A stretch of DNA of 43,001 bases, taken from NCBI GenBank assembly GCA_013178015.1, contig JABLXR010000036.1:1-43001 (forward strand), read 5' to 3'. The stretch's first letter is position 1. Each line of letters opens with the position of its first letter. Source of the stretch: Anaerolineae bacterium (GTDB lineage Bacteria > Chloroflexota > Anaerolineae > DRVO01). This document shows, piece after piece, positions 41,205 to 43,001 of this stretch. The notes under the pieces were generated by a model that did not search any database, was not told the DNA's origin, and saw nothing but the letters and a program-made list of their open reading frames with translations. The translations under genes were made by a program, and so were the position numbers.

Positions 41205-41233
41205 TTGACACCGCGCATCAATGGTCTTAGTAT
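41205..41233 (+). promoter_or_regulatory. Predicted promoter of the multiheme cytochrome gene
   Basis: Perfect TTGACA (41205-41210) and TAGTAT (41228-41233, four of six) with a 17-base spacer. The leader contains a small hairpin CGACGC-CAG-GCGTCG (41250-41264) before the GGAGG ribosome site at 41284-41288. This is the best -35 in the window. Confidence 0.65.
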
Positions 41234-41297
41234 CGCCGAGTCGTGGCGGCGACGCCAGGCGTCGTCGTCGCGGACCGGACTGCGGAGGCGGTTGCCT

Positions 41298-43001
41298 GTG
41301 AGACGCGTATTCGTTGGCCTGGTGGCCCTGGTGGTCCTGTTCGCCCTCTTCGTCGGTGGTGTGGCCCTTCTGGACTACACCGAGTCCACTGAGTTCTGCA
41401 CTCTCTGCCACAGGACGATGGAACCCGAGGCCGTAACCCATCAGGTTACGGCTCACGCCGAGGTCGACTGCGGCACCTGTCATATCGGGGAAGGGGTTCT
41501 GTGGAGCATTTACTATCATGTGGCTAACGCCCGATATGCGGTGACGTATCCCTTTGGGCTCTACGAGCGGCCTCTAGAGACACCTCGCAGCACCCTGCGG
41601 CCGGCGGAGGCCGTGTGCGGCCAGTGCCACTGGGAGGAGGCGAACTACGGACCCAGGCTGGTTACGCTGAATAAGTACTCTGCCGACGAAGCCAACACTC
41701 TGGCTCAGGTCCAGTTGCTGGTCAAGACGGGCAGCGGTCAGGCCGACATGCCTGGCGTCGGCGCGGGAGCTCACTGGCACGTTGCCAACCCGGTGTCCTA
41801 CGTGGCCGCCGATGAGGAGGCGCAGGAGATACCTTGGGTGCGGGCCGTCGTAGATGGGGAGGTCAGGGAGTACTGGGCCAGTGGTGCCGGCCCTACGCCC
41901 GAGGCCGTTGCGGCCAGCGACATAGATGAACTGGACTGCATGGACTGCCACAGCCGGGCTCAGCACAGGATCCCTCCCACCGAGGAGGCGGTTGACCGGG
42001 CCATGGCGGAGGGCCTGCTACCGACCGACTTGCCCTACATCAAGAGCGTGGCCGTGGACGTGCTGGAACAGCGCTACGAGACCCGTGAAGCCGGGTACGC
42101 TGCCATGGACGCGGTCTCCGATCGGTATCAGAGCCAGTACCCAGACGTGTTCAGCAGCCGGCAAGAGGACGTCGAGCGCGCAGTCGAGGGTCTGCGGTTG
42201 CTCTTCAGCCGCACTCATTTCCCCTACATGAATCAGTACTGGGATACCTATCCCGACAACGTGGGGCACACGTACTTCCCTGGCTGCTTCCGCTGCCACG
42301 ACGGCGATCATATCGGTGAGGACGGCCAGGCGATCCGAGCCGAATGCAATCTGTGCCACAGCATCCCCCAGGTGGCGTCAGGGGGCGCTCTGCTTCCTGC
42401 CGTCAGCCTGGCGTTCGGTGATAGGCCAGAGTCTCACCTGAGCACCCTCTGGATTGCCGAGCATCGCTATCGCTTTGACACTAGCTGTGCCGAGTGCCAT
42501 TCGGTCGGGAACGCAGGCGGGGCCGACGACAGCAGCTTCTGCAGCAACAGCGCCTGTCACGGGCGCGAGTGGAAGTACCTGGCCTTGAACACTGAGCGAG
42601 TGCTGGCGCTGTCGGTACCCGAGAGAGAGCCAGCTGAAGTGGCTCGCCCGGTTCCGCACCTGGTCGCCGAGGACATGGTCTGTGAGCTCTGTCACGGGCT
42701 AGGGCAGGTCCTGGCGTATCCGGAGGATCACGCTTCCTACACTCGGGACCTTTGTGTAGCCTGTCATCCCGTGGCCGAGGCCAAGGAGGAGGTCACACCT
42801 GAGCCGACGCCGGTCGAGACTCCGGTTGAGGTGGCCACACCCACGCCGGAGCCCACAGCTACTGCGCCGGTGGAGGTTACCCCAGAGGCCACCATTACCG
42901 CCACGCCCGGGATCGCGGTCACCGAGACCCCTAGCGCGACCGAGACCGCTGCCCCCGAGGAGACGGAGACGCCCGAGGTCGGCGAGACTCCGACGGTGGA
43001 A
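41298..43001 (+). CDS. NapC/NirT-type multiheme c-type cytochrome with ten haem sites (3' end cut by window)
   Basis: Incomplete at the window end; 568 codons are visible, from a GTG with GGAGG nine bases upstream. Residues 4-25 form a membrane anchor. Haem attachment motifs: CTLCH at 34, CGTCH at 58, CGQCH at 107, CMDCH at 214, CFRCH at 330, CNLCH at 350, CAECH at 397, CSNSACH (four-residue gap) at 415, CELCH at 462 and CVACH at 486, nine normal and one wide. The first part resembles NapC/NirT quinol dehydrogenases, which pass electrons from the quinol pool to periplasmic or surface partners. Residues after 490 become a Thr/Pro/Glu linker (VETPVEVATPTPEP and similar) still open at the end. 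Downstream partners are not visible. Confidence 0.88.
   Translation, partial: MRRVFVGLVALVVLFALFVGGVALLDYTESTEFCTLCHRTMEPEAVTHQVTAHAEVDCGTCHIGEGVLWSIYYHVANARYAVTYPFGLYERPLETPRSTLRPAEAVCGQCHWEEANYGPRLVTLNKYSADEANTLAQVQLLVKTGSGQADMPGVGAGAHWHVANPVSYVAADEEAQEIPWVRAVVDGEVREYWASGAGPTPEAVAASDIDELDCMDCHSRAQHRIPPTEEAVDRAMAEGLLPTDLPYIKSVAVDVLEQRYETREAGYAAMDAVSDRYQSQYPDVFSSRQEDVERAVEGLRLLFSRTHFPYMNQYWDTYPDNVGHTYFPGCFRCHDGDHIGEDGQAIRAECNLCHSIPQVASGGALLPAVSLAFGDRPESHLSTLWIAEHRYRFDTSCAECHSVGNAGGADDSSFCSNSACHGREWKYLALNTERVLALSVPEREPAEVARPVPHLVAEDMVCELCHGLGQVLAYPEDHASYTRDLCVACHPVAEAKEEVTPEPTPVETPVEVATPTPEPTATAPVEVTPEATITATPGIAVTETPSATETAAPEETETPEVGETPTVE

Follow-up and report, generated by a model that had tools for sequence, protein, structure and literature searches.

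Homologues of ImcH have been described from 12 phyla and carry 6 to 10 haem motifs (PMC6295460, available text). In their usual form, three transmembrane (TM) helices precede the first haem; two published exceptions have one, and a one-TM homologue has been reported from Anaerolinea thermophila (PMC6295460, same sections). As far as the available text of PMC6295460 goes, ImcH homologues have so far been reported solely in quinol oxidation. A second described arrangement is Cgr1/Cgr2 of Eggerthella lenta, for which the accessible part of PMC5953540 gives a proposed route from the quinone pool through haems to a flavin. Multihaem genes of Anaerolineae are often taken as signs of mineral or electrode respiration. 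Here, we compare with these systems a cytochrome gene in which an ImcH/NrfH-like part is fused to a six-haem domain and is followed by the gene of an exported flavoprotein.

A cytochrome gene that continues on a second contig

The window (the whole stretch of DNA analysed, 43,001 nucleotides) is the entire contig C36 of a 4.57-Mb genome in 97 contigs that is 95% complete. The cytochrome frame is still open at position 43001, where the contig ends. The features of this region are as follows.

41205 to 41233, plus strand: promoter-like site TTGACA-17-TAGTAT (consensus scan, 10 of 12 matches)
41284 to 41288, plus strand: GGAGG, probable ribosome-binding site, 9 bases 5' of the GTG (read from the sequence)
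41298 to 43001, plus strand: multihaem cytochrome gene, the 5' 568 of 730 codons; the rest is on the minus strand of C91, with the stop at C91:7469
41301 to 41381, plus strand: N-terminal membrane anchor, residues 2 to 28 (predicted helix; hydrophobic segment)
41397 to 41951, plus strand: NrfH-like unit with haem sites 1 to 4 (CTLCH 41397, CGTCH 41469, CGQCH 41616, CMDCH 41937)
41517 to 41519, plus strand: His74, a Lys in 36 of the 37 aligned rows
42285 to 42359, plus strand: haem sites 5 and 6 (CFRCH, CNLCH), present in 37 of 37 aligned rows
42486 to 42767, plus strand: haem sites 7 to 10 (CAECH, CSNSACH, CELCH, CVACH), variable across the family
42768 to 43001, plus strand: Thr/Pro/Glu-rich linker, the window part of a 103-residue stretch between sites 10 and 11
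42780 to 43001, plus strand: 222 bases shared with the end of contig C91, apart from a single mismatch at 42875

The window part alone is a single open frame with nine CXXCH motifs and one CX4CH motif (CSNSACH, 42540); these, the N-terminal anchor and the open Thr/Pro/Glu tail were all as described in the initial annotation. That annotation had also credited the gene with a strong promoter and begun it at 41205. The consensus-like site is there, and 41205 marks that site, with the cytochrome most likely starting at the GTG at 41298. Although 0.0 such sites were expected in 50 shuffles of the scanned 351-base stretch, TTGACA-17-TAGTAT is a consensus match only, and we call it promoter-like.

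The last 222 bases of the window match the end of C91, and this overlap is found only at these two contig ends. Joining the contigs gives a cytochrome of 730 amino acids with 16 haem motifs, of which 14 are CXXCH, one is CX4CH, and one is CX3CH; over 5000 shuffles of the residues of the joined protein, the number of motifs averaged 0.20 and never exceeded 4. The tail, which the initial annotation could follow only to 43001, does not run directly to a stop: in C91 it is followed by six more haem sites and then the stop. At 42875 the window has G and C91 has T, which changes Glu to Asp within the linker and perhaps reflects strain variation in the assembly. This mismatch and the repetitive composition of the linker could be taken to mean that C91 is not the continuation of the window and that the 16-site chain is chimeric. 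We consider such an artefact very improbable, given that the overlap is confined to these ends and that a genome of the same genus (G001) holds the full arrangement on one 7607-base contig (C366; L044/L126). This contig encodes a 754-amino-acid, 16-motif homologue and keeps the gene order of the window genome, cytochrome and then flavoprotein. L044 (JAAYAV010000453.1, an Anaerolineae MAG) encodes the same protein as C366 of G001, and the two were taken as one contig.

Relationship of the N-terminal part to NapC/NirT, NrfH, and ImcH

The NapC/NirT assignment made in the initial annotation holds for the N-terminal part, which scores 27.1 bits with PF03264 (cut-off, 24.1) over profile positions 10 to 86 of 174; the joined chain, with 16 sites, is not a compact four- or five-haem protein of this group. 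No other PF03264 protein was found in the genome, where two Cytochrom_C_asm proteins (cytochrome c assembly) were found and ResB (haem maturation) was not. The sole PDB sequence matched by phmmer at E values up to 0.1 is NrfH (2j7a_C; E = 4.8e-8). The predicted core model (pLDDT, 79.4; pTM, 0.80) contains the four-haem fold of NrfH (2j7a, 2vr0), with a VIA-align Z of 7.4 over 141 of the 144 NrfH residues and 4.2 for the next unrelated row. Foldseek gave no PDB match to the core model at E = 0.001 or better, NrfH being the best at 2.7e-3. With NrfH as the nearest solved structure, the window protein might be thought to be the small subunit of a nitrite reductase. This is exceedingly improbable: TIGR03153 (NrfH) reaches 36.9 bits against a cut-off of 134.2, and NrfA (PF02335) had no match in the 95%-complete genome in a search that found the E. 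coli control. The window protein further differs from NrfH in an insert of ~95 residues between haem sites 3 and 4 and in twelve further haem sites.

To describe the family, we used an alignment of 37 rows selected among the fetched relatives of the window protein; six CXXCH-type haem sites and four histidines (His53, His161, His223, and His324) are invariant in all of these rows. The residue twelve positions past the second haem His is Lys in 36 rows, L044 among them, and in NrfH, and is His only in the window protein (His74). The corresponding Lys is presumably the quinol-site Lys82 of NrfH; the equal spacing was read from the printed sequences, and the HMMER alignment opens a gap of one residue at this point. 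At the first haem site, 33 of the 37 rows have CX3CH, and the window protein, L044, L006, and L021 have CX2CH. In the tree, the window protein pairs with L044 (100/100) and L006 joins next (98/98); the cores of the window protein and L044 are 69% identical.

As in ImcH, a NapC/NirT-like section lies at the TM helix and the first haems (definition from the available text of PMC6295460) and is followed by further haems, and the published range of 6 to 10 motifs covers the N-terminal ten. The initial annotation had regarded ten haems in one chain as an unusual expansion, a view that we do not share, because a count of ten on its own is not new given the motif numbers reported for ImcH homologues. 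The window protein differs from ImcH in having one TM helix before the first haem rather than three, CX2CH rather than CX3CH at the first site, an extra linker and six-haem domain that bring the chain to 16 motifs, and a flavoprotein neighbor. Because the three TM helices, the CX3CH site, and the 6 to 10 motifs of ImcH are not those of this chain, we describe it as ImcH-related and stop short of classing it as ImcH itself; it resembles Geobacter ImcH as compared by published description. Two further assignments were tried and set aside: the Cgr1 model (NF051471) was not listed for the window part at E values up to 1, and the family models for TorC, checked on the window protein, did not fit.

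Two other gene arrangements were seen among these relatives. In an Acidobacteriaceae locus (L066:3057-9083) and similar ones, a DmsE-family decahaem gene (252.7 bits against 192.2, scored in L066 only), the gene of an ~800-amino-acid protein, and monohaem genes are followed on the 3' side by an ImcH-like six-haem gene. The available sections of PMC6295460 report no mtrAB next to imcH, and a suspected MtrB/PioB identity of the ~800-amino-acid protein was not supported by any Pfam, NCBIfam, or PDB sequence match. In two genomes of the class (L131:1583-5329 and L133:1563-5294), nine-haem, cytochrome b, and NapC-type genes are preceded by the gene of a protein of ~1245 amino acids that carries 34 haem-type motifs.

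The six-haem domain and its flavoprotein neighbors

The C-terminal domain shares 58, 52, and 49% identity with its counterparts in G001 C366, in C26 of the window genome (G000), and in G001 C520. The copies in C26 and C520 are free-standing, each carrying a hydrophobic segment at its own N-terminus and a Thr/Pro linker, and lie beside genes for a Tat flavoprotein and a Gfo/Idh-like protein (L124:7403-10229 and L125:1426-4139). In the model of the L044 homologue, the linker has pLDDT under 50 and the C-terminal domain is of low confidence. A profile built from these four sequences and searched in 396 genomes of the class matched 30 listed places in 19 genomes. Twenty of these match over the first half only, which is a dihaem unit common to other multihaem proteins, and ten, in 8 genomes, match through the C-terminal end of the domain. 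The ten full-reach loci, among which the four query rows are counted, are G000 C91 and C26, G001 C366 and C520, G096, G245, G091, G388, G300, and G236.

All ten have a flavoprotein gene of one broad family nearby, adjacent in seven and with one gene between in three (L191, L194, and L195). PF00890 scores over its cut-off in nine of these flavoproteins; the one at C520, which had no Pfam scan of its own, is 79% identical to the one at C26. An RR motif is present in the N-terminal region of all ten. Where a gene intervenes (L191:7181-10667, L194:7141-10518, and L195:598-4538), the order is a Tat flavoprotein, a protein of 228 to 399 amino acids (those of L194 and L195, when scanned, matched no Pfam family), and a four- to six-haem protein with a Thr/Pro linker. 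As a control, none of 16 loci of the class with a NapC-type core and another C-terminus had such a flavoprotein (tblastn, four queries), a weak comparison because several of these loci are short contigs; nine of the 16 have a gene for a b-type cytochrome instead (alignments of at least 264 residues; the one in L128 identified). Among the 80 named loci, the flavoprotein is present only in L044. The fusion of the six-haem domain to a NapC-type part was found only in the two genomes of one genus, and this joining of an ImcH/NrfH-like part to the hexahaem domain of a flavoenzyme partner is the new element of the locus; we found no description of a NapC-type/hexahaem fusion in Chloroflexi in the open-licence literature.

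The flavoprotein encoded in C91 has 514 amino acids; its gene follows that of the cytochrome in the 3' direction on the same strand, after a gap of 345 nucleotides (L003:7127-7471, minus strand). The gap contains a 12-bp GC-rich hairpin without a T run (z of -2.8 for the whole gap) and, by consensus, no promoter or terminator. The protein matches PF00890 (161.7 bits against 20.4; E = 4.3e-47), has an RR motif of Tat type, and contains one Cys. Among solved structures, Shewanella flavocytochrome c3 and urocanate reductase are the nearest to it. In alignment to 1qo8, it has Asp and Ser at the positions of the catalytic Arg and active-site His of Fcc3, which we take to be R402 and H504. On account of these missing catalytic residues and the TIGR01813 score (162.1 bits against 285.45), we rejected it as a fumarate reductase.

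The flavoprotein at the same place in G001 is a different one (28% identity over 296 residues) and is closer to the C10 flavoprotein of the window genome; we read this as exchange of the flavoenzyme while the cytochrome stays. The window genome has six loci of such flavoenzymes, three of which (C91, C26, and C10) have an adjacent multihaem gene. The C10 pair (L153:7362-9921) consists of a 548-amino-acid Tat flavoprotein and a cytochrome that has seven motifs and strongly matches PF14537.

Proposed function and comparison with flavoenzyme-linked systems

With moderate confidence, we propose that the cytochrome joins a quinol dehydrogenase, through a flexible tether, to a domain that acts as the electron-transfer partner of an exported flavoenzyme. 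The N-terminal ten-site part, being ImcH/NrfH-like, would oxidize quinol; the Thr/Pro/Glu tether would let the C-terminal domain reach the flavoenzyme; and electrons would pass from the quinol pool along the haem chain to the Tat-exported FAD enzyme, which may reduce a small organic acceptor outside the cytoplasm. Counting against this proposal are the unlike flavoproteins of the two genomes, the strong hairpin in the gap, the fumarate reductase residues that the flavoprotein lacks, the low confidence of the modelled C-terminal domain, and the replacement of the family Lys by His74.

The His74 substitution would suit the opposite direction, in which electrons run from an exported flavoenzyme acting as a dehydrogenase, through the cytochrome, to the quinone pool. 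The best NCBIfam model of the C91 flavoprotein is that of a dehydrogenase, TcuA (206 bits, below the cut-off of 369), and the CymA and CbcL families are reported to work both ways (PMC6295460, available text). We treat this direction as a real rival because the C91 protein is without the fumarate reductase residues, and nevertheless judge it unlikely: ImcH homologues are so far known for quinol oxidation, and L044 retains the Lys.

The initial annotation had proposed that electrons run from the quinol pool to the outside, possibly as extracellular electron transfer. Exchange with the quinone pool is part of our proposal as well, whereas the likely partner is an exported enzyme and not a mineral or electrode, because the relatives of the six-haem domain all lie beside, or one gene away from, genes of exported FAD flavoproteins. 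Transfer to minerals, electrodes, or partner cells is improbable even so close to ImcH, a protein that Geobacter uses for extracellular electron transfer (PMC12307469, available text), and in a group where related loci hold many multihaem genes and the Anaerolineales are reported to be rich in multihaem cytochromes (PMC7399161, available text). Beyond the ten of ten loci with a flavoprotein gene, the OmcA/MtrC decahaem models, considered in the initial annotation, score far below their cut-offs (TIGR03507, 25.8 bits against 209.3; PF22113, 20.2 against 30), and the search for other cytochromes nearby gave no further multihaem gene in the window or C91. No homologue with these sites was found to be assigned to a known reductase.

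As no second PF03264 protein was found in the genome, the cytochrome may also work with flavoenzymes other than its neighbor. On that basis we suggest, as a possibility that we hold only tentatively, that the 16-haem chain is the only NapC/NirT-type exit from the quinone pool in this genome and a hub that serves several exported flavoenzymes whose substrates are exchangeable. Such a modular respiration of organic acceptors would have arisen around an ImcH-type quinol oxidase captured by fusion. A cytochrome kept between species, a swapped flavoenzyme, and a free-standing copy of the C-terminal domain beside another flavoenzyme fit this suggestion, under which an ImcH-type oxidase, known from mineral respiration, would have been turned to soluble substrates in Chloroflexota. 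If the tethered quinol dehydrogenase that we propose is correct, the multihaem genes of Anaerolineae may partly serve exported flavoenzymes whose substrates are small molecules. An otherwise anonymous hexahaem domain gains from the fusion a testable assignment and a named partner enzyme, and the fusion also warns that ImcH-like genes alone are no proof of extracellular electron transfer.

In Cgr1/Cgr2, as at this locus, the gene for a NapC/NirT-type cytochrome anchored in the membrane goes with that for an FAD reductase exported by the Tat route (PMC5953540, available text). Cgr1 is much shorter than the window protein, its NCBIfam model having 204 positions, and Cgr2 needs a [4Fe-4S] cluster (PMC5953540, available text), whereas the C91 flavoprotein has its single Cys. 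Our best reading is that the 16-haem chain would carry a Cgr1/Cgr2-like logic within one chain. In FccABC of Wolinella, a flavoprotein reductase has a separate multihaem donor, and the quinol-linked cytochrome (FccC) is separate as well. In Mrd/Mcc of Geobacter sulfurreducens AM-1, too, the flavoprotein reductase has a multihaem donor of its own, and the quinol-linked cytochrome is yet another protein (PMC4427408, available text), whereas here both haem parts form one chain.
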